Assembly (NCBI GenBank): GCA_014193315.1
Contig: BJHS01000006.1
Coordinates: 1-64,000 of the forward strand
Source of the DNA: Verrucomicrobiota bacterium
GTDB lineage: Bacteria; Verrucomicrobiota; Verrucomicrobiia; Opitutales; UBA953
DNA: 64,000 nt
Direction of reading: 5' to 3'
In this document: one piece after another, positions 47,225 through 61,844 of the stretch
Position numbering within the stretch: position 1 is the first letter of the stretch
Layout: the number at the start of each line of letters is the position of its first letter
The notes under the pieces: model-generated
The model's database searches: none
Told to the model about the DNA's origin: nothing
What the model saw: only the letters and a program-made list of their open reading frames with translations
Translations under genes and position numbers: made by a program

Positions 47225-48709
47225 ATGACTCCCTTTAAACTCACCCGTGTCGCGTCGCTCAAGACGGTCGCGGATTTCCGCGCATACTGCGCTTCCGTCG
47301 GCGCCGACCTCCCGCTGGAGGACGCCATCGAGGCCGGCGCGGGCAATCCCCTCTCGCAGCCAATCACGCGCACCAAGGTCAACGGCAAGACCATCGGCAA
47401 CCGCATCGCCATCCATCCGATGGAAGGCTGGGACGGCACGACGATGGGCGGTGCGTCGCCCGAGATGAAACGGCGCTGGCAGCGCTTTGGCGCGAGCGGC
47501 GCCAAGCTGATCTGCGGCGCCGAGGCCATGGCGGTACGGGCCGACGGGCGGGCGAACATGAACCAGCTAATCATCAACGATGAGAACCAAGCCGGCATCT
47601 CCGAACTCGTCCAGCTCCTCCAGGCTGAGCACCTGAGATGCTGGGGTTCGGTCGACGACCTAGTCATCGGCTTCCAGCTCACGCACTCGGGCCGTTTCTG
47701 CCGCCCGCATGACAAGAAGCGATGGGAATCCCGCGTGGCCTACCGCCACCCGATCCTCGATAAAAAGTTCCAGGTGACATCCGACGACCAGCTATTGACC
47801 GACGACGAGGTCGAGGAACTGATTCGTTGCTACGTGCGCGCCGCCCGCGTGGCCCGCGACTGCGGTGCCGACTTCGTGGACATCAAGCACTGCCACGGCT
47901 ACCTCCTGCATGAATTCTTAAGCGCCCACACCCGCCCGGGCAAGTTCGGCGGCTCCTTCGAGAACCGCACCCGCATCCTGCGCGACATCATCGCCGGGAT
48001 CCGCGCCGACGGCAACGCGATCGACATCGGCGTGCGTCTGAGCCTGTTCGACATGGTGCCCTTCCGGCCGGACCCCGTCCGGAGCTTGCCGGGCAAGCTC
48101 GGCCCCGGCATCCCCGAGGACTTTTCCGCCTGCCTGCCCTACCGCTACGCGTTCGGCGTGAACCCGGCTAACCCCACCGAGATCGACCTCACCGAGACCT
48201 TTGCGTTCGTGAAGCTCCTAGGCGAACTGGGCGTCAAGATCCTCAACACCACGGCGGGCTCCCCCTACTACAACCCCCACATCCAACGTCCGGCGGCCTA
48301 CCCACCCAGCGACGGCTACCAGCCGGCCCACGACCCGCTCATCGACGTCGCCCGCCAGGTCCGCGTCGTCCGCGACGTCCGTGCACAGGCCCCTGCGGGC
48401 ATGATCGTGGTCAGCTCCGGCCTTAGCTACGTCCAGGAATACCTCCCGCACCTCGCTCAACACATCCTGCGCACCGGCGGCAGCGACGCCATCGGCGTAG
48501 GCCGTGCCGTGCTCAGCTACCCGGCCATGCTTGCCGACGCCGCCAAGAACGGCGCGATGGAGACGAAATTCATCTGCCGTACCTTCAGCGACTGCACGAC
48601 CGCCCCACGCAACGGCCTCATCTCCGGCTGCTACCCGCTCGACAAGTATTACACCGCCAAGCCGGAGTTCCAACAGCTCAAGGACATCAAGAAGAACGTC
48701 GGCGCCTGA
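47225..48709 (+). CDS. NADH:flavin oxidoreductase / Old Yellow Enzyme family
   Basis: FMN-dependent oxidoreductase of 494 aa, with a barrel larger than OYE itself. Family motifs are NRIAIHPMEGWDGTT near residue 60, FQLTHSGRF near residue 152 and the hallmark HCHGYLLHEFL with GGSFENRTRIL near residue 225. A Cys-rich stretch near the C-terminus (CRTFSDCTT) does not match the CXXCXXXC cluster motif of 2,4-dienoyl-CoA reductases, so it probably lacks [4Fe-4S]. It should reduce an activated double bond or oxidise a related substrate made by the cluster. Its TGA abuts the TCA of the opposite gene with no gap. Confidence 0.88.
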   Translation: MTPFKLTRVASLKTVADFRAYCASVGADLPLEDAIEAGAGNPLSQPITRTKVNGKTIGNRIAIHPMEGWDGTTMGGASPEMKRRWQRFGASGAKLICGAEAMAVRADGRANMNQLIINDENQAGISELVQLLQAEHLRCWGSVDDLVIGFQLTHSGRFCRPHDKKRWESRVAYRHPILDKKFQVTSDDQLLTDDEVEELIRCYVRAARVARDCGADFVDIKHCHGYLLHEFLSAHTRPGKFGGSFENRTRILRDIIAGIRADGNAIDIGVRLSLFDMVPFRPDPVRSLPGKLGPGIPEDFSACLPYRYAFGVNPANPTEIDLTETFAFVKLLGELGVKILNTTAGSPYYNPHIQRPAAYPPSDGYQPAHDPLIDVARQVRVVRDVRAQAPAGMIVVSSGLSYVQEYLPHLAQHILRTGGSDAIGVGRAVLSYPAMLADAAKNGAMETKFICRTFSDCTTAPRNGLISGCYPLDKYYTAKPEFQQLKDIKKNVGA

Positions 48710-50050
48710 TCAGCGCTTCCGCAGACGCACGACGACCCGCGGAGGGACCGGGACGTCGGGGCCGGGATTAGGCAGGAGGACGAAGTCGTCGGCGGCGACC
48801 GCCTGAGTCTCACCCCCGAGGATCTCCCAGCCGGCGGCGTGGCGCGGCAGGAAGGCGACAAGGGGTCGGCCGCCCCGCTGGGATCCGTTGGTGTCAACCG
48901 GGGTAAAGGTCCGCTGGCCCGCACCGGGCACGATGGTCCACTCGACCTCCCCCGAGGCCAAAGCGGTCAGGGTCTCCGTCCAGCGAAGGGGTCCCGGCGC
49001 CAGACGCGCATCCCAGTGAGGGTCTCCATAGAAGATGGTCATGTCGCGGTCGAATTCCAGCCCACGCCGGTCGGTAGCGGGGACGCGGCCGGCCGCGACC
49101 TCTTGGAGGCGCCAAAGCAATGCCTGATGGTTGGCCAACCAGGCTTGGCTGAGGTTGAAGCGGCCAGGTTGCTCCACGAAATAATCAAGGACCCCCCAGC
49201 CAGCGTAACCGAACCAGGTCGGCTGCACATAGCCGACCATCTGCCGGACGCCACCCGAGGCCATCCAGGAGAGGGCCATGCAGTCGCCCCCGGGGACGTT
49301 ACCCATCAGGCAATTGCCGATTGGCAGGTAGACCTTGGGGTTCGCTGAAGCCAGCCGATGCACGACCCCATCGAGGGCCTTACCGAGGATCACGCCGTCC
49401 TGATGCCCAAAGGTGCCATTACGATAGCGGTAGCCGGGTTGCCAGTCGTGTTCGGTGGCATGGCCGGAGGTGATGAAGAGGTCGGTGTGCCCCGCGTTGA
49501 GTCGGGCGACGATCGCCGCCGTGGAATCTTTCTCGCCCGTGACTTCCCGGGGCACGCCACCGGCAGGCTTCTCCCAAGCTTCGCCGGCCTTGAACTCCGA
49601 GAACCAATAGCCCTGCTCGGCGCACTCCATGGCGAAGGAGGTGCCAGCGCCCACCGTGCGGATAACCAAAGACTTACCGGGCATGGCAAGCCGCAGGGCA
49701 TGCTCGGCGTTCAGCCCCGTGACCACGCCCCACTGGAAATCCTCGTAGGCGTCGGCGTCGTTCTCGCGAGCCAACCGATGCATGACCACGGCCGCCTTGG
49801 GTCCCAACTCCTCGGGGCGGGCCACCCAAGTCACAAAACGCGGCTGATGACGGCGCAATTCGTCCTGCAACTCGGAGGGGGAGGCGCGGAAGACCAGGAC
49901 CTTGGCTTCGTGGGCGGACTCGAGCGCCGCCACGACATTGGCCCAGACTTCATCATAGCGGGTGGCCGCCGAGACGAGCACGACCGAGTCGGCGGCACGG
50001 ACGACCAGCGCCCAGGCCAGCAAAGGCAGCAAACGGAGGACGGGCGACAC
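48710..50050 (-). CDS. Secreted gingipain-like (clan CD, C25-type) protein, function unknown
   Basis: Protein of 446 aa with signal peptide (VLRLLPLLAWALVVRAA). The central region resembles the gingipain/C25 peptidase catalytic fold: LFITSGHATEHDW holds a His near residue 197, and YLPIGNCLMGNVPGGDCMAL holds a Cys near residue 247, followed by GGVRQMVGYVQPTWFGYAGW. In gingipain R the corresponding blocks have the pattern GHGSETAW and a Cys-containing CNNGDF...CFAEAL, then a Trp-rich loop. Spacing and order match. The C-terminal third is unassigned. Peptidase activity is inferred, not shown. Start GTG 50050 lies two bases after the stop of the preceding methyltransferase gene; an earlier TTG would overlap it. 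Confidence 0.7.
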   Translation of the reverse strand: MSPVLRLLPLLAWALVVRAADSVVLVSAATRYDEVWANVVAALESAHEAKVLVFRASPSELQDELRRHQPRFVTWVARPEELGPKAAVVMHRLARENDADAYEDFQWGVVTGLNAEHALRLAMPGKSLVIRTVGAGTSFAMECAEQGYWFSEFKAGEAWEKPAGGVPREVTGEKDSTAAIVARLNAGHTDLFITSGHATEHDWQPGYRYRNGTFGHQDGVILGKALDGVVHRLASANPKVYLPIGNCLMGNVPGGDCMALSWMASGGVRQMVGYVQPTWFGYAGWGVLDYFVEQPGRFNLSQAWLANHQALLWRLQEVAAGRVPATDRRGLEFDRDMTIFYGDPHWDARLAPGPLRWTETLTALASGEVEWTIVPGAGQRTFTPVDTNGSQRGGRPLVAFLPRHAAGWEILGGETQAVAADDFVLLPNPGPDVPVPPRVVVRLRKR

Positions 50051-50052
50051 GC

Positions 50053-50814
50053 TCAAGGGTTCTCGAAGATGAGCAGGTGCTGCCAAGGCAGCCCGGGCTT
50101 GTTGACGACAAAACGAAAACCGGCCGCCTCGAACTCCTTGCGAGCCTGTGCCTCGGACATCTTGTGGTGTGGCTTGATTGGGACCTTCGTGTCCTCCTCG
50201 CGATACTCGAGGACGTAGATCCGACCCTTGGGTTTCAAGGCCGAGCGCAAGGACGCGAGCATCTCGACCGGGTGGTCGAACTCATGGTAAGCATCAACCA
50301 TCAGGGCCGCGTCGAGGGTAGCGGGCGGCAGTTTCACCCCATCGATGGCGCCGAGGTGCGGCTGGACGTTGGCCATGCCCAAGCGTGCCGACTCCTTCTT
50401 GAGGAAGTCCAGCATCTCGGGCTGGATGTCGACCGCCACCACCCGGCCTTGCGGAATCTTCGGCGCGATCCGGAAAGAGTAATAACCGGAGCCAGCACCG
50501 ATGTCGGCGATCACGGCATCCGGCGCCAGTTCCAACAAGGCGATCGCCTTCGAAGGGGCTTCCTCCTTCTCGCGATTGTCGCGTTCCAGCCAGCCAATAC
50601 CGGGATGGCCCATGACCTGGGCGATTTCGCGCCCCATCCAAGTCCGGCCGATCCCGTCCGCGGAAGGCGCGCACGACCCATAGGCGGGAGCCGCGACCGG
50701 AGGCACGGTCGGGGCGGGAGCCGGGGCGGCGGTCGAGGGCTTGGACCATAAGTACAGCCCGAACGTGGCGGCCAACAGGAGCAGGGACGTGATGGCGGGG
50801 TTACGACGGAACAT
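50053..50814 (-). CDS. Membrane-anchored class I methyltransferase
   Basis: Protein of 253 aa. The N-terminus FRRNPAITSLLLLAATFGLYLW is a signal anchor with positive residues on the inner side, followed by an Ala/Pro linker to about residue 47. The SAM domain then shows motif I VIADIGAGSGYYSFRIA, VVAVDIQPEML and VDAYHEFDHPVEML. With this topology the catalytic domain would face the periplasm, odd for a SAM enzyme. Similar signal-bearing methyltransferases occur in other bacteria without known function. ATG 50814 is preferred to a TTG three codons upstream. Coupled to the gingipain-like gene. Confidence 0.82.
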   Translation of the reverse strand: MFRRNPAITSLLLLAATFGLYLWSKPSTAAPAPAPTVPPVAAPAYGSCAPSADGIGRTWMGREIAQVMGHPGIGWLERDNREKEEAPSKAIALLELAPDAVIADIGAGSGYYSFRIAPKIPQGRVVAVDIQPEMLDFLKKESARLGMANVQPHLGAIDGVKLPPATLDAALMVDAYHEFDHPVEMLASLRSALKPKGRIYVLEYREEDTKVPIKPHHKMSEAQARKEFEAAGFRFVVNKPGLPWQHLLIFENP

Positions 50815-50899
50815 ACCCGACAACTAGGGCCGCCCCGCGGGAGCGCAAGTCCGCCCGTGCTTGACCCTCCCCAACCCCTCGGCCACCCCTTCCCTACGC

Positions 50900-53144: not shown

Positions 53145-56100
53145 GTGTCCGCTCCCTCGCCAGCCCCCCGCATCCACGGGCGTCGCTACGGCTTCGGGCT
53201 CATCCTGGCGCTGATCATCATGGGCATGATGGTGATGACCATCATCGTGATCGCGGGCTTCCTTTCCGTGGAGAGCCACCTCGCCATCCAGCAGCAACTT
53301 GCCTTACGTTCCCGGCTCAACGGGTTGGTCTCCATGCGCTTGGCGCTCGGGCACCTCCAACAGGAAGCGGGACCTGACCGGAGGGCAACGGCCCGCGCTG
53401 ATCTCGCTCAACCCGATGCGACTTCCGCCAATGTGCGCAACCCCATGTGGACCGGGGTCTGGCGAACCGATAAACCCAACCAAGCCCCGAGCTGGTTGGT
53501 TTCGGGCAATGACCCGGACAACCCTTGGATTCAGTCCAGCTCCCTCGCCGGCATCTATGGTTTGACCCCCAGCGCCGCCTACCCGTCGAACTACTGGCTA
53601 CCTTGGGAGACGGATTACACCAGCCGCTGGAAAGAACTTGGCTTCGTCCGCCTGGTTGGCCCGGCGAGCGCGACCGACGTCGAGGTGAACGCCCTCACGG
53701 ACCCGACGGGAGGAAAGCCGAGCGGCTTGGTCGTCCTACCTAAACTCAACCTCACCGAGAGAGCAGCCAACGGGGACGATCGCCAGCTGGGAACCTACGC
53801 TTATTGGATCGGAGACGAAGGCGTCAAAGCCCGGATCAACCTCGAGGAGCCTCGGGCCGGTCTTCCCTCCACGGATAACCTCGCCCGCAGCGCCCTCCGC
53901 AGCGCGGCGACTCCGGGCGTGCGCTTGCTCAAGGGAGCGGAAGCCCTGACCGACGAATTCCAGGCCGCCGCGCTCTCCAGCCCGCGCGAGCTCGGCCTCC
54001 TAAGCGGCTTCAGCGCCGACCCAAGCGCGACCCTCCGCCTCTACCACGACGTGACCACCACGGCGGCCGGCGTGCTCGCCGATGCCGCCAACGGCGGCCT
54101 GCGGCGCGACCTTTCCCTGGCGTTCGAGTTATCGGATGCGGAGTTCACGAAGACCGAGTTCGGCGGCGGAGTCGACCTACCGGCGACCGCGACCGAGAAC
54201 GGCTCGCTGAGCCTGAAGATGCTGGCACCAATCAATGGTCGCAGCATCCGGGTCTCCCCCATCTTCAATCGAGCCACGCCGGAGGGTAACCTTCGCGGGC
54301 CGACGTGGTGGGCCCTACGCGACTACCATCGCCTCTATAAACAGGTAGGCTGGGTGGGCGGGGTGCCGACCCTCAATGCCCGGACCTACTTCCCCAACGC
54401 CGGCAACATCCACCCGGAGGCCGACACCGGTAATACCGCGACGGTCAAGCAGCGCAATTACCTGTACTCGTCGATCTACGCCGGCGACCGCGTGACGCTC
54501 AACCCGAACGTCAGCGACACGGGGACCATCAAAGAGAACAACTGGCAATTAAGCTCCGCGCCGATTCCTCGCCCCTTCAACTGCGCTGTCGCCTCCTACC
54601 TCAACCGTGTCTTCCTGGTTTTCAACCTCATCAAGGACTCCTCGACCGGCGCGACTTGGGTCTACCTGAACCTCACCCCGATCTTCGTCCTGCACAACCC
54701 GTACAACGTCGCGCTGACCATCAACCCCACCGGCGGCCATTCCGCGTTGGCACTGACCTTCAGCGATTGGGATCAATGGATGTTCCGCGTCACCCGGAAG
54801 ACCTATGTCTACCCCAAACGCAACATCTACGACGAAATTCAGCGGACCCCCCTCACTTTCACCTACACCAAGAACCTCGGCGACTACTACCGTTTCGCCG
54901 ATGGCAACGCGGTCAATGATAGCGACCTCTTCCGAGTCTACGTCGACCAGCTGACGCTACAGCCTGGCGAGTACAAGGTTTTCACGCCGAGAACCGGCGC
55001 ACGCTCGCGATGGTCGCGCGTCGTCAAACTCAACAACAGCTTCAACTACCAAGGCGGCTTCGCGGACGAAGACGTGGATTGGAGCGACCTCTGGCCGGAC
55101 TTTCGCTGGTATTACTTCAACCCCGTCTACTACCCGCCGGCCCTCGGCTACCCGCCGTCCGACGCCTTCACTTTCGAAGTGATCCCCAATGGCAAGTTCA
55201 GCGTACGCTATTCCTTGAATTGCTGGCCGGGCGACCAGCTCCCCTTCCCCGCCGCAAGCACGATCGGCACCGGCACCAACCTGTACCCCGCCTTTGACCT
55301 TTACAATAAATCCAGCGAGCATGCGGAAATCGTCTACCGTGGCATCGACAGTACCGTTGGCTCACCCGGGCCGCTAAACATTGGCGACCTTGTCGCCCAG
55401 ACGCCCGAGAAATCCCCGTCGCCCGGCGTCTACCAGCCAGGGGTCATCATCGCCGCCTTCGAGCTCTCGGCCAAGACCGCCCGCGAAAACACCGTCACGA
55501 CCAGCGGCACCGCCCCGTCCGCAGCAGGCACCTTCCCCTTGTTCAGCCATTCGAACCCAATGGCCGCCGTCGCCCACGCCGACGGGGCTGGTCGGGCTTC
55601 TACCGCCGAAGGGTCTGGGTACGGTGGCGGCTCGCCCAGTTACCGCATGCGGGTCACGCGGCCGACGGGTGGCATGAACGCGTGGCTCAGCCTACTCCAA
55701 TCACCCGGCGGGGCACAGCCGCTTACCTACGGTGGGCTCAGCAACCAGGTCGACGGCAACGTCACCTCCATCCACACCGAGGTACCGCTCGTCCCTCCAA
55801 CCTCCCTCGGGCAATACACCCACGCCAACTTCAATGTGCGGGACCAGCAGCCGCTCTTCGGGGTCGGTAACAGTTTCGCCAACCCACAGGTGGACCCGAC
55901 CATGACCTACTCATCCGCCAATAACTGGACGGAATACGACGCACCCTACCTACTGAACGCCGCTCTATGGGACGGTTATTTCCTTTCCGGAGCCGCGCCA
56001 AAGATGACCACGGCCGCGACGCCAAGCCAACCTGCCCCCTCGAACCCAGATAGCACCGAGGTGTCCAACCCCTCTCTCGAAGCCAAACCGTTGGGCACGG

Positions 56101-57155
56101 TCCTCGACGAGTTCCTGGGCGGCGCGGGCAAACTGGAGAACCCACGCATGCGGCTGGTCGGCGAAGCCCCGGCCTCGCGGAGCGCCTTAGGGGACTACCG
56201 TCGCAGCGCCTCGGCCTTGCTCAACGACGGTGCCTTCAACGTCAACTCCACCTCCGTCGAGGCTTGGGCCGTATTCCTCGGTTCAGCCAAGAAGATCGCC
56301 ATCGCGAAGTTAGCGGCGACCTCCCCGATGACCGATGGCAACGCCCGTTTCCCGCGGGCGACGCCGACCGGCTCCGAGCCCATCGCGACCGGGGCCTATA
56401 ATGAGGCGACCAAATCCAACTGGACGGGCTTCGTAAACTTGACGGATGCGCAAATCCGTCTGCTCGCCGCCGCCATCGTTAAGGAAAACAAAGCTCGCTT
56501 CCTGCTCACCACGCGCACCGAACGCGACAGCACCAACCCACCGACGACTCGCCTGTTCCGCGGCTTGACGAAGGCGGCCACCCCCTACCTCAGCCTCGCC
56601 GAATTCATCAATCGGTTCCTGACCCCAGGGTCTACGAATGCGTGGGCGACTCGCTGCGGCGCGCTCCAGGCGGCCATCTTCCGGGCGGACAACCCGCCCG
56701 CCGGCGGTCCACCCATCGCCGGCCTGACGGACCGGCTTACCAACCGCTACACCGTGGGCATGATGAACGCGAACAACTGGCCGCGCCCGACGGGACTCGC
56801 CAGTTTCCCCTACGCCGCCAATGTCGAGGCCATGGAGCAAGGCGGCGCCAACCGTACCCACGTCGCGATGGGCTTGCCCGGCAACCTGCTGCAAGTCGAC
56901 CTACTCCAATCGCTTGGTGCCTCCCTCGCCACGCGTTCGGACACGTTCACCATCCGGGCCTACGGTGAAACGGTGGGCTTCGATGGCAACCCCGGAGCCT
57001 GCCTGCTGGAAGCGGTCGTGCAACGCCTCCCTTCGTTCGTCAACGACCTCGACCCAGCCGAGACGGCATTCAAAGACCTGCGCCTTGCCAACCAGCTCTT
57101 CGGCCGACGTTTCAAGGTCATCTCCCTACGCTGGCTCAAACCCCATGAAGGCTAA
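53145..57155 (+). CDS. Giant pseudopilin-like protein (Verru_Chthon cassette A type), copy 1
   Basis: Exported protein of 1,336 aa. A 15-residue basic leader ends in RRYG, followed by FGLILALIIMGMMVMTIIVI, a prepilin-like helix without the usual Glu at +5. Landmarks follow: LGHLQQEAGPDRRATARADL near residue 70, NPMWTGVWRTDKP, AYWIGDEGVKARINLEEPR near residue 222, NVNSTSVEAWAVFLG near residue 1030 and the ending LFGRRFKVISLRWLKPHE. These are characteristic of the very large cassette A proteins of Verrucomicrobiota, whose function is unknown. Translation starts at GTG. The stop overlaps the start of its partner gene by 11 bases. A paralogue follows at 57954. Confidence 0.85.
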   Translation: MSAPSPAPRIHGRRYGFGLILALIIMGMMVMTIIVIAGFLSVESHLAIQQQLALRSRLNGLVSMRLALGHLQQEAGPDRRATARADLAQPDATSANVRNPMWTGVWRTDKPNQAPSWLVSGNDPDNPWIQSSSLAGIYGLTPSAAYPSNYWLPWETDYTSRWKELGFVRLVGPASATDVEVNALTDPTGGKPSGLVVLPKLNLTERAANGDDRQLGTYAYWIGDEGVKARINLEEPRAGLPSTDNLARSALRSAATPGVRLLKGAEALTDEFQAAALSSPRELGLLSGFSADPSATLRLYHDVTTTAAGVLADAANGGLRRDLSLAFELSDAEFTKTEFGGGVDLPATATENGSLSLKMLAPINGRSIRVSPIFNRATPEGNLRGPTWWALRDYHRLYKQVGWVGGVPTLNARTYFPNAGNIHPEADTGNTATVKQRNYLYSSIYAGDRVTLNPNVSDTGTIKENNWQLSSAPIPRPFNCAVASYLNRVFLVFNLIKDSSTGATWVYLNLTPIFVLHNPYNVALTINPTGGHSALALTFSDWDQWMFRVTRKTYVYPKRNIYDEIQRTPLTFTYTKNLGDYYRFADGNAVNDSDLFRVYVDQLTLQPGEYKVFTPRTGARSRWSRVVKLNNSFNYQGGFADEDVDWSDLWPDFRWYYFNPVYYPPALGYPPSDAFTFEVIPNGKFSVRYSLNCWPGDQLPFPAASTIGTGTNLYPAFDLYNKSSEHAEIVYRGIDSTVGSPGPLNIGDLVAQTPEKSPSPGVYQPGVIIAAFELSAKTARENTVTTSGTAPSAAGTFPLFSHSNPMAAVAHADGAGRASTAEGSGYGGGSPSYRMRVTRPTGGMNAWLSLLQSPGGAQPLTYGGLSNQVDGNVTSIHTEVPLVPPTSLGQYTHANFNVRDQQPLFGVGNSFANPQVDPTMTYSSANNWTEYDAPYLLNAALWDGYFLSGAAPKMTTAATPSQPAPSNPDSTEVSNPSLEAKPLGTVLDEFLGGAGKLENPRMRLVGEAPASRSALGDYRRSASALLNDGAFNVNSTSVEAWAVFLGSAKKIAIAKLAATSPMTDGNARFPRATPTGSEPIATGAYNEATKSNWTGFVNLTDAQIRLLAAAIVKENKARFLLTTRTERDSTNPPTTRLFRGLTKAATPYLSLAEFINRFLTPGSTNAWATRCGALQAAIFRADNPPAGGPPIAGLTDRLTNRYTVGMMNANNWPRPTGLASFPYAANVEAMEQGGANRTHVAMGLPGNLLQVDLLQSLGASLATRSDTFTIRAYGETVGFDGNPGACLLEAVVQRLPSFVNDLDPAETAFKDLRLANQLFGRRFKVISLRWLKPHEG

Positions 57156-57953: not shown

Positions 57954-60900
57954 GTGGTCGTATCCCGAGTTCTAGGGTTTATCCTGCATTGCATCAGTAT
58001 CCTTAAAGTCCAGACTGAGGGCTTCCCCTTGCCCCCTCACGGTCCACACCCCCCTTCGAGCCCCGCAGTTCGGAGTAACCGACAAGGCTTCACCCTGGTC
58101 TTGGCTCTGACGATCATGGCCATGTTGTTGCTTGTCGTCATCACGCTCGTTTCCTTCCTTAAGATCGAGTCACGCTTGGCCACGCTCGCGGTCAACAAGG
58201 CGCAAGCACGGATGCAGGCGATGGTCTCGCTTCGTCTCGCCTTGGCCCACCTGCAACAGGAAGCTGGACCAGATCGCCGAACCACTGCCCGGGCCGATAT
58301 CACGGCTAACACCATGCAGCCTAACTGGAATTGGACTACGATCAAGAACCCCCTTTGGACGGGCGTCTGGCGGACGGATAAGCCGGCGCAACCTCCGGCG
58401 TGGCTCGTCAGCGGTCGCCATGATCGCCCCGCTGGGGCGCAATTGATTTCGCTCTCAGGCGCCTTGAGCTACCCGGCCGATGCTCAGCTCCCTTGGGATA
58501 CGAGTTACCTGCCGCCGCCGGTGAACCTCATCACCTTGGTCGGCGATGCCAGCGCCTCCGCGGGTGAGCTGCCCTCGGCCAACAGTTTCGGGAAACCGGA
58601 TGGACGCATCAGCCTCCCGCGGATCCCCCTGCCCGACCCTGGCGTCGCGGGCACTTATGCTTATTGGATCGGCGACGAGGGCGTTAAAGCCCGCCTCAAC
58701 CTAACCGACCCACGACTCACCCCTCCGACCGGCACAGCGACCGATCAGATGAAGCAAGAGGCGCTCCGAGGCACCGCGCGCGCGGGGGTCGAGATCCTTC
58801 AAGGACTAGAGACCATGCCCGTCGGCGGCATCGACCCGCGAGTCCGCTCCATGCAGGAGCTCCCCTTGCTCACCCTTGCCACGGGCACCGGCCTACTGGA
58901 AACGACGCCCCCCTCGGTAGCCAAGCACCTCTACACCGAGACGACCTTCTGGTCGCGAGGCGTCAACAGCGACTCACGTTTCGGCGGTCTGAAGATCGAC
59001 CTCTCCCTCGCCTTCGAATTGACCGAGGTCGAATGGCTGGCTAGCGAATTTTCCGCAGGACCTCCGCCCATGGATTCGGCAGGCGGCAATCTCGCTGGGG
59101 TGACGTACCTCTTCCATCCCGACGACACGACCCAACGGGCCGCCTACGGCGACTTAAAGGTCAACGTTCCTTACGGCGGGGCGAATCACTCCCTCTCGAC
59201 GCTCTACACCTTCGCGGTCAACCCGAGCAACCCCACCCAGCTGGCTCGCGGGCCGACGTGGGACGCGCTGCGCAACTACTACCGGCTCTACAAGGAACTG
59301 GACTGGTCCAGCCCGATGACACCTACGATCCGTGCACGCACGCACTTCCCCAACACCATCAGCCTCGCCGCCTCGGGCTATGGCGGTACGGCCCATTACA
59401 GCCACCGTTACAATCGGATGGATTCGGGCGAAAACTACCTAGTGCTTGATTTCTTCAATGGCCAGCCGTCTCCCCGCCCCGTCAAAGTATCCGTCACCCC
59501 TTATGTTGCGCGTCAACTCATGGTCTGGGGCTTGATGGAGGAAGCCGGCCAACTTCGCCTGACCTTGTCGCCGATCACGGTCCTGCACAACCCCTATAAC
59601 GTCGCCGTGAAACTCAGCAAGGACCCGGCGACCCAGGATATCGCCGCGATGCGACTCTCTTTCCGTGCTTGGGATAATTGGACCGTCAACTTCAGCACGA
59701 CCTCTAAAGGCTACTGGTCACGGCGGATGATTGACCTCGCCCGCATCACCGATGGCTCCGCCAACTGGGGAGAGAGTTTCCGTACCTACATCAAGGACGG
59801 CACCATCTTGCAGCCAGGTGAATTTCGGGTCTTCTCCTCGGCCAGCGTCGGACCAGTACCCTTCACCCGACTCCCCCCGCTTTCCACCAATAGTTTCGAC
59901 TTTCTCGGAGGGTTCTACCTGCCTTGGACCGACAGCAATGGCGCCCCGGTCAGTCGATTACCCACGGACACAATCTCGGTCGGGGTCGCAAGCACTGGCC
60001 CCTTCTACGTGCGCCACCTCCTGACCTGCTGGCCCGGCGACCGCATCATGGATACGGGGAACAGCAATGACGGCCAACTTTACAACGTCTGCAGTGAAGT
60101 GACGGAGCTCCTCGCCAATGACCTCGACCGCAGCGGGGTCATCCCGGCCAAGGTCTTCAGCGCCGGGGTCGTGCTACCGAAATCGGGCCAACCGCCCATC
60201 ATCCTCGCGGTCTTCGACTACGGGATGCGCTGGCCCCGGGACCCGCAACCCTTTCCGCTGTTCACCCACTCGAACCCGATGGCGACGATGACGCGTCCCG
60301 AGGCGACCGGCATCGGACCCAGCTCGATGCCGCCTGGCTACGCCAAAACCTCATCGAGTTTCAAGATGGTCGTACGCGCCGCCAACTCCTGGCCAGAGGT
60401 CCTCGAGGCCGCAGGGACCGGCTCCAGCCTCGCCTTTGGCGGGCAGAGCGTCTCTTCCGGTAACGGCGGCCAATCCAGCGCCGTCTACACCGAGGTACCG
60501 CTCGCCCCACCGATCTCGCTCGCCCAATTTGCCCACGCCAACTTCACGATTCGGGACCAAGAGCCGCTCTTTGCCATCGGGAATAGTTTCGGCTCCCTCT
60601 TCAACCCAATCAACGCAATGGGTTACAACACCTACGGGCTGACGACCTGGGACCAAACCTGGATGCTTAACGCGTCGCTCTACGACCGCTACTTCCTTTC
60701 CGGAGCCGCTCCCGAAATCACGCGCGGCGTTGTGGTCACGGAAAAACGCTCATTGACTACCGTACTCGATGACTTTGTGGCCGGCAAAGGCACTTTAGCC
60801 AACCCCCGCATCGCGCTTTTCTCCAACCGTGACACGGTGACGGTGCGAGCCATGGTCGGCAACCATCGCCGTATCGCCGGGGCCACGGTCACCGAAGGGG

Positions 60901-61844
60901 CCTTCAACGTGAACAGCACCTCGGTGGAGGCCTGGGCGACAATCCTCGCGAGCAGTAAACGCAATAAGATGGGGGCCGCGAACGAGACGCAGCCAGCGCC
61001 CCACCAAAACGCGCGTTACCCCCGGGCAATCCGAGCCGACTTAGCCAATTATAACTTCAAATCACCCTACGCCTCGCCCAACGCCTGGACGGGGCTAAAC
61101 ACCCTGGACGACGACCAGATCAAGCTGCTGGCCAAATCCATCGTCGATGAGATCCGGACCAGAGTCGTCCTCCCCCACCGCAGCCTCTACACGTCGATCA
61201 ACCACAGCCCCACGGAATCCTACACGATCCCGCTCCCCTTCATCGGCCTGGCTCAATTCGTGAACCGCTACCTTTGCGGGTATCATTACGACACGTCGTT
61301 GGTCGGTTGCCTGCAAAATGCGATCGTTCGCGCGGATGTCGACGGCGCCAACCTCTCTAACCGGACAGTCAACGTCGCGCCGGTCGCCGATGTCTCGCTC
61401 CTCGCCCAGAACAACGCCCCAGGCAGCACGCCGTGGACACCCCCCGATGGCCTCATACGAAGTAACCTGACGATGCAGGACCCGCGGAGCGAAGGCACCA
61501 ACCGCGGCCACCTCCTCACCGGCGCCCCGACTTCCTTGATGCAGTCCGACCTGCTCGCGGTCATCGGCCCAGCCCTCACGACCCGCTCCGACACCTTCGT
61601 GATCCGTTGCTATGGGGATATCACGACCCACCCAAGTTCCCTGAGCGCCAATGCCGGATGCTGGATTGAGGCGGTGGTCCAGCGGACGCCGGAGTTCTGC
61701 GACCCGAGCCAACCCCCGGAAACCGAGGTCTGCAGCGCTACCGACTCCTACCAGTTCAACCCGAAACTAAAGCTGGTCAACCGCTTGTTCGGTCGCCGTT
61801 TCCAGATTATCTCCTTACGCATCCTCTCTCCGAAGGAACTCTGA
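57954..61844 (+). CDS. Giant pseudopilin-like protein (Verru_Chthon cassette A type), copy 2
   Basis: Paralogue of the protein at 53145, 1,296 aa as opened at GTG 57954. The prepilin leader RSNRQG precedes FTLVLALTIMAMLLLVVITL, a cleaner Gly-Phe site than copy 1. A TTG at 58029 would give a leader of 20 residues and may be the true start. Matching landmarks are LAHLQQEAGPDRRTTARADI, NPLWTGVWRTDKPAQ, AYWIGDEGVKARLNLTDPR, NVNSTSVEAWATILAS and LFGRRFQIISLRILSPKE. The two copies share order and many blocks but differ in length, so the duplication is not recent. Its stop shares a base with the next gene (TGATG). Confidence 0.83.
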   Translation: MVVSRVLGFILHCISILKVQTEGFPLPPHGPHPPSSPAVRSNRQGFTLVLALTIMAMLLLVVITLVSFLKIESRLATLAVNKAQARMQAMVSLRLALAHLQQEAGPDRRTTARADITANTMQPNWNWTTIKNPLWTGVWRTDKPAQPPAWLVSGRHDRPAGAQLISLSGALSYPADAQLPWDTSYLPPPVNLITLVGDASASAGELPSANSFGKPDGRISLPRIPLPDPGVAGTYAYWIGDEGVKARLNLTDPRLTPPTGTATDQMKQEALRGTARAGVEILQGLETMPVGGIDPRVRSMQELPLLTLATGTGLLETTPPSVAKHLYTETTFWSRGVNSDSRFGGLKIDLSLAFELTEVEWLASEFSAGPPPMDSAGGNLAGVTYLFHPDDTTQRAAYGDLKVNVPYGGANHSLSTLYTFAVNPSNPTQLARGPTWDALRNYYRLYKELDWSSPMTPTIRARTHFPNTISLAASGYGGTAHYSHRYNRMDSGENYLVLDFFNGQPSPRPVKVSVTPYVARQLMVWGLMEEAGQLRLTLSPITVLHNPYNVAVKLSKDPATQDIAAMRLSFRAWDNWTVNFSTTSKGYWSRRMIDLARITDGSANWGESFRTYIKDGTILQPGEFRVFSSASVGPVPFTRLPPLSTNSFDFLGGFYLPWTDSNGAPVSRLPTDTISVGVASTGPFYVRHLLTCWPGDRIMDTGNSNDGQLYNVCSEVTELLANDLDRSGVIPAKVFSAGVVLPKSGQPPIILAVFDYGMRWPRDPQPFPLFTHSNPMATMTRPEATGIGPSSMPPGYAKTSSSFKMVVRAANSWPEVLEAAGTGSSLAFGGQSVSSGNGGQSSAVYTEVPLAPPISLAQFAHANFTIRDQEPLFAIGNSFGSLFNPINAMGYNTYGLTTWDQTWMLNASLYDRYFLSGAAPEITRGVVVTEKRSLTTVLDDFVAGKGTLANPRIALFSNRDTVTVRAMVGNHRRIAGATVTEGAFNVNSTSVEAWATILASSKRNKMGAANETQPAPHQNARYPRAIRADLANYNFKSPYASPNAWTGLNTLDDDQIKLLAKSIVDEIRTRVVLPHRSLYTSINHSPTESYTIPLPFIGLAQFVNRYLCGYHYDTSLVGCLQNAIVRADVDGANLSNRTVNVAPVADVSLLAQNNAPGSTPWTPPDGLIRSNLTMQDPRSEGTNRGHLLTGAPTSLMQSDLLAVIGPALTTRSDTFVIRCYGDITTHPSSLSANAGCWIEAVVQRTPEFCDPSQPPETEVCSATDSYQFNPKLKLVNRLFGRRFQIISLRILSPKEL

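Follow-up and report, generated by a model that had tools for sequence, protein, structure and literature searches.

A frame on the reverse strand of the window (by which the whole analysed stretch of 64,000 nucleotides is meant) encodes a protein which, in a first-pass annotation, had been likened to the gingipains, the peptidases of family C25 in clan CD, on the basis of two short blocks carrying a His and a Cys. The question raised by the locus is whether a protein matching no family model may nevertheless be a peptidase of this kind and, if so, how it is related to C25. The results reported below argue, with good confidence, for an exported cysteine peptidase of an unrecognised family, which shares common ancestry and fold with C25.

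The gene and its product

The features of the gene are listed here, in window coordinates.

48710..50056, minus strand: C25-like peptidase gene, 448 aa; stop codon at 48710-48712, TTG start at 50056
50053..50823, minus strand: upstream SAM methyltransferase-like gene (Pfam Methyltransf_25, E 3.8e-15), overlapping by 4 nt
49991..50056, minus strand: putative signal peptide covering about the first 22 residues, recognised by eye
49658..49990, minus strand: N-terminal alpha/beta part, about residues 23-133, from the global hhalign map, with 133 as an approximate limit
49460..49462, minus strand: His199, predicted catalytic His (TSGHAT), on the C25 His column (H in 47/49)
49310..49312, minus strand: Cys249, predicted catalytic nucleophile (GNCLMG), on the C25 Cys column (C in 49/49)
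49196..49219, minus strand: Trp-rich loop TWFGYAGW, residues 280-287; W287 in 62/62 family rows
49019..49030, minus strand: YGDP motif, residues 343-346, on the C25 GDP (in the global alignment, G in 48/49, D in 47/49 and P in 42/49)
48713..48979, minus strand: C-terminal tail, residues 360-448 (89 residues); predicted strands, pLDDT mostly below 60

The frame had been placed at 48710-50050. The frame itself stands, but the in-frame GTG at 50050 is only a possible alternative start, the likelier one being the TTG at 50056, which shares bases with the stop codon (TGA) of the methyltransferase-like gene upstream. The ORF 48710-50056 is a real gene, as dN/dS is about 0.1 (0.108 and 0.102 against the close relatives L002 and L003, with dS about 0.9), a value of purifying selection, and relatives are found across the phylum.

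The N-terminus of the protein is hydrophobic and terminates in ...VVRAADS; by eye it resembles a signal peptide, as had been proposed, and the protein is probably exported. The first predicted strand starts at residue 24 of the AF2 model, so that no room is left for a propeptide, and the protein is too short for the adhesin domains of gingipains; the lack of a gingipain-like layout had already been remarked upon in the first-pass annotation. In RgpB a 229-residue prodomain, which blocks the active site, precedes the catalytic region and an 84-residue Ig-like domain follows it (PMC4357240). The 89-residue tail of the window protein is close in length to the latter and, judging from the model, may be its counterpart.

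Within the N-terminal part, strands and helices alternate, and the first 50 residues have the best pLDDT of the model. This part also carries the motif D102-x3-D106-x3-G110, aligned by hhalign, in global mode, with the D-x3-D/E-x3-G of C25. The two blocks of the first-pass annotation, SGHATEHDW (with His199) and IGNCLMGNVPGGDC (with Cys249), are both present, 50 residues apart and in the C25 order, and they are followed by the Trp/Tyr-rich stretch noticed at the same time, TWFGYAGWG.

Searches against known families

When the window protein was searched against Pfam and NCBIfam, no model was found at E<=10, and a search of PDB sequences returned two weak rows only, taken as chance. The same result was obtained with a set of 45 family members, from which the degenerate sequences L051-L053 had been left out: scanned singly, none of them matched PF01364 at E<=0.1, and no convincing Pfam or NCBIfam model emerged, scattered matches involving at most 3 of the 45 members each. 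DUF4240, the best Pfam match (3/45 members, E 0.0079), GGDEF_2 (1/45, E 0.0017) and the best NCBIfam match (1/45, E 0.092) were all taken as chance. Profiles built on 14 or 45 members gave nothing convincing against PDB, one of them retrieving quinolinate synthase at E 0.57 and the other nothing.

Searches of the genome to which the window belongs for PF01364, C11, CHAT and C14 gave no hit at E<=0.001; the window protein is therefore the only clan CD-like protein that they leave there. Among the papers listed by literature searches, which covered mostly material outside subscription journals, there was none on the C25-like family.

Profile comparison with C25

A comparison with HMMs of C25 and of C11/C14 had been proposed as a check. 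As reported above, the PF01364 HMM itself gives no match, but a match to C25 appears when profiles are compared with each other. For this purpose a C25 profile was built from domains matching PF01364 in the phylum of the window genome, and hhalign was used for the comparisons. The profile initially contained 29 domains, derived from 30 loci by omitting the partial L099, and was later enlarged to 49 by adding 20 further listed matches. The family was represented by 62 rows, not including L249, which is in a wrong frame, and the five rows lacking the Cys (L051, L052, L053, L261 and L262).

The family aligns with the 49 C25 domains over 270 columns, with a score of 63.2 (P 2.7e-7), and His199 and Cys249 fall on the His and the Cys of C25. 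As controls, the best of 100 column shuffles scored 22.2 and the reversed profile 17.8, while profiles of unrelated families gave 22.1 (sulfatase, from 19/30 loci) and 15.0 (aminotransferase, 30/30). The score decreased to 53.1 when the His block was masked, to 55.3 when the Cys block was masked and to 45.3 when both were. The His remained in register under all three maskings; the Cys remained in register with the His block masked, and was two columns off with the Cys block masked.

The score depends on the alignments used, and the larger C25 set matters. Against the 29-domain set, family scores were only 38.7, 38.6, 30.1 and 35.1 (P 4e-4 to 6e-3), to be read against the 33.2 reached by a chance pair, C14 and aminotransferase. 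The same His and Cys pairs are present in the printed alignments which were inspected.

The families compared were C25, C14, C11 and CHAT. As yardsticks, C25 scored 58.9 against CHAT, 35.2 against C14 and 26.3 against C11. Little likeness to C14 (PF00656) was found: the score of the family against its profile (21 sequences, obtained from 23/24 loci after removal of two empty ones) is 18.4, over 23 columns around the His, lower than that of the best C25 shuffle. The score against C11 (PF03415), 17.2 over 23 columns just before the His, and that against CHAT (PF12770), 27.3 over 75 columns, say little, because these profiles hold only 3 sequences each (from 3/5 and 3/4 loci) and are too shallow to judge. 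With this limit, the match to CHAT, a His-Cys domain of clan CD, is far below that to C25 and restricted to the His-Cys region; what the family has in common with C14 and C11 is the order, His then Cys.

Features shared with C25 and features replaced

The motifs D-x3-D/E-x3-G, GH, C-x2-G, GG and GDP occur in a common order in C25 and in the window family. In the global alignment D102 falls on a C25 column occupied by D in 44/49 domains, D106 on D or E (47/49), G110 on G (39/49), G252 on G (43/49) and G269 on G (44/49). The arrangement of the family, His then Cys, is also that of the clan CD dyad, described in PMC4357240.

Other positions differ. An Arg found in all 49 C25 domains (column 152, in a G-R motif) is replaced by Val111 in the window protein, and a Glu located 15 residues after the Cys (column 297, 43/49) by Leu262. 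The catalytic His of clan CD is followed by a conserved Gly, according to the legend of Fig. 1 in PMC12445089. In C25 the residue after the His is mostly Gly (43/49, with Ala in 5/49), whereas it is Ala in 61/62 family rows. Glu154, 45 residues before the His, is D or E in 56/62 family rows; a mostly Asp column (28/49) lies at the same distance from the His in C25, and the alignment pairs Glu154 three columns off. N248, Q272 and W287 are invariant residues of the family's own.

On these grounds the family is C25-like and is not a member of C25 (PF01364): no HMM match is found, the His is followed by Ala, the Arg is missing and there is no propeptide.

Predicted fold

An AF2 model was obtained from an input alignment of 14 sequences. 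The full-length model was too poor for use (pLDDT 50.9), while that trimmed to residues 23-359 reached a modest confidence (pLDDT 60.9, pTM 0.61). In the latter, a strand at 171-175 ends just before the SGH (His 177) and another, at 220-224, just before the GNC (Cys 227), all in model numbering. This recalls RgpB, where the catalytic His and Cys are located at the ends of two strands, as stated in PMC4357240. The loop carrying the Cys (model residues 223-260, corresponding to 245-282 of the protein) is below pLDDT 50.

A Foldseek search with the model gave nothing at E<=1e-3. The 50 rows listed contain no gingipain and are mostly Rossmann-like or flavodoxin-like proteins, with E 0.012 or worse. 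The 1000 best Foldseek chains from PDB were then compared with the model by VIA-align, and here, rather than a fold unrelated to caspase-like sheets, the outcome named beforehand as speaking against the assignment, gingipains came out on top: RgpB 4ief_B at rank 1 (Z 9.4, rmsd 4.7, 237/337 residues aligned), RgpB 1cvr at rank 2 (Z 8.9, rmsd 4.8, 238 aligned) and Kgp 4rbm at rank 4 (Z 8.5, rmsd 4.8, 242 aligned). The remaining 47 of the rows listed align over at most 118 residues. As, according to a note of the tool, the typical best Z without a clear match is 7 to 8, the Z of the gingipains is modestly higher, and the aligned length is the stronger argument for a gingipain fold in the model.

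Distribution and conservation of the family

Relatives of the window protein were identified in 13 loci, on contigs labelled Opitutae, Verrucomicrobia, Kiritimatiellae/Kiritimatiellaeota and Lentisphaeraceae, plus one labelled 'bacterium'. A single-sequence query matched 57/288 genomes of the phylum, and an alignment query 72/387; apart from split matches, each of the 72 contains one family copy. No relative was detected in the viral contigs scanned.

Of 48 distinct family sequences (query included, some of them near-identical), 46 retain His199 and 45 retain Cys249; after addition of 20 rows and removal of L249, the counts are 64/67 and 62/67, respectively. The two blocks are not a chance occurrence, because the His and the Cys are kept in nearly all family sequences. 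The His is preceded by Gly in 37/48 rows. Several Kiritimatiellae members, such as L005, L007 and L012, feature lipobox-like N-termini, identified by pattern match.

The five rows lacking the Cys have Gly in its place and form, in the tree, one clade within a single genus, g28; two of them, L052 and L262, derive from the same genome. Three of the five (two genomes) also have Gln in place of the His, and the loss of the Cys is accompanied by further motif changes in the same rows.

Fusions with other domains

The proteins in which the C25-like domain is joined to other domains were scanned with Pfam, one for each architecture, except for the two carrying a transglutaminase-like domain behind it. 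In L055 (1473 aa) both M16 models and the C25-like domain are found on one chain. This protein and L263-L270, all from g28, are chains of about 1,475 residues, with an M16 peptidase at the N-terminal side and the C25-like domain at the C-terminal side; in the eight other than L055 the M16 part was recognised from its alignment to L055, with which it shares 41-52% identity. The genus, which belongs to the same class as the window genome, includes 22 genomes with a family match. The M16 motif HxxEH is present in 8 of the 9 fused proteins, the ninth, L269, being cut short at that end. Four of the nine have lost the Cys, and two of these the His too, while HxxEH is kept in all four.

Transglut_core follows the C25-like domain in L056 and L040 and precedes it in L066. 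A GH127 arabinofuranosidase, DUF6805 and the C25-like domain make up a single chain of 1269 residues in L057:825-4634. In L063 the family member has a C11 gene immediately upstream, on the same strand.

Genomic context and history of the window gene

Inspection by eye of 18 loci and the window revealed no conserved gene neighbourhood; ORFs were picked by a simple procedure, which selected wrong frames in some loci (e.g. L003, L058, L067). The upstream methyltransferase gene is a flank of the peptidase gene. A putative part in its function was considered and dropped, since two congeners have the methyltransferase without the peptidase gene, and in L060, which comes from the same genome as L016, a divergent gene stands in that place.

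In these congeners (G102 and G298) the oxidoreductase gene found at 47225-48709 of the window adjoins the methyltransferase gene, with no peptidase gene between them. Comparison of window positions 48704-50078 with the two corresponding loci, L271 and L272, shows that these have the flanking genes and cleanly lack the peptidase gene in between, which defines a presence/absence site of a single gene; no family match is found anywhere in either genome. The tree groups the window copy with L002 and L003, and next with a long-branch protein from another taxonomic family (f7 g45), apart from the copies of g2, which belong to the same taxonomic family as the window genome; the programme warns that this grouping of long branches may be spurious. 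The tree placement, together with the absence of the gene between conserved flanks in two congeners, makes a horizontal gain of the window gene possible, loss being the other reading.

Two large ORFs are located elsewhere in the window, on the plus strand: 53145-57155 (1336 aa), with a hydrophobic, pilin-like N-terminus (YGFGLILALIIMGMMVMTIIVIAGFLSVE), and 57954-61844 (1296 aa), with GFTLVL near its start. The ORF at L003:40-4071 has a similar start. The genome (2.36 Mb) contains at least 45 sulfatase matches (44 of 64 candidates scored), a count which suggests, at the level of gene content, a specialist on sulfated polysaccharides.

Proposed function and alternative explanations

Following the mechanism of C25, the nucleophile attacking the peptide bond would be Cys249, placed where one central strand ends, and the base would be His199, at the tip of the adjacent strand; the peptidase activity of this pair is a prediction. 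In RgpB the P1 Arg is read by Asp163 and the pocket is covered by Trp284, as reported in PMC4357240. By comparison with that enzyme, the Trp-rich loop 280-287 might close over the P1 side chain as a lid, and, as a guess, Glu154 could read a basic P1 residue. The likely role of the enzyme would be to cut proteins on the cell surface or in the periplasm, either as nutrients or in order to process them.

The likeness to C25 might be due to convergence, or be an artefact of alignment over an unrelated alpha/beta fold. The mostly Rossmann-like and flavodoxin-like proteins among the Foldseek rows listed, the modest confidence of the model (pLDDT 60.9) and the scores obtained with the smaller C25 set, barely above that of the chance pair, are in line with such an origin, but the shuffle, reversal, unrelated-family and masking controls, the co-linearity of the D..D..G, His, Cys and GDP motifs and the leading VIA-align ranks of RgpB and Kgp, aligned over most of the domain, make it very improbable. 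If the fold is that of clan CD, the protein might still be a binding protein, never or no longer a peptidase, in which His and Cys have a structural or metal-binding role. The M16-fusion clade without the Cys, keeping the rest of the domain, GDP included, indeed points to a use without catalysis. Both residues are found, however, in 62/62 rows outside that clade (the five Cys-less rows having been excluded beforehand), and the loss of the Cys coincides with other motif changes, as expected of a relaxed active site; a binding role for the family is accordingly considered improbable, if somewhat less so than a spurious likeness.

The fold and the Cys-His pair of C25 would equally be found in a transpeptidase or maturase, which joins or trims surface proteins instead of acting as a digestive endopeptidase. 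Enzymes that join or trim proteins of the cell surface are known in clan CD: the PorU sortase belongs to C25, and the GPI transamidase is another member of the clan. The evidence of homology to C25, from profile and fold, is the same for such an enzyme; one copy per genome suits processing at least as well as digestion, and the lipobox-like N-termini of L005, L007 and L012 suit a membrane-bound role. Against it, no conserved partner gene was seen by eye in the 18 loci and the window, and two congeners lack the window gene at the corresponding site, so that it is dispensable there. This explanation is regarded as unlikely, although the least so of the three.

A cysteine peptidase of common descent with C25 thus remains the preferred explanation. 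A more detailed version of it, to which about equal belief and doubt are attached, describes a clan CD family which is sister to C25, has a His-Ala/Gly-Asn-Cys site and is missed by Pfam and NCBIfam; in g28 its domain would be placed C-terminal to M16 in a conserved polypeptide, so that a single chain would carry two unrelated proteases, of which the C25-like one has been switched off in a derived clade. The new secreted subgroup of clan CD suggested in the first-pass annotation is a fair description of the family, in view of the profile and fold matches to C25, with export as a prediction.

Implications

If this assignment is correct, dozens of proteins of Verrucomicrobiota, gut lineages included, whose domain is unmatched to known families would become candidate cysteine peptidases. 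Clan CD would gain a family illustrating the extent to which an active site of the C25 type can diverge, with a His-Ala, no Arg and no prodomain. The relatives devoid of the Cys would provide a natural comparison for the use of the domain without cutting. Likely protein-cutting enzymes of lake and gut Verrucomicrobia may, in that case, have been overlooked.
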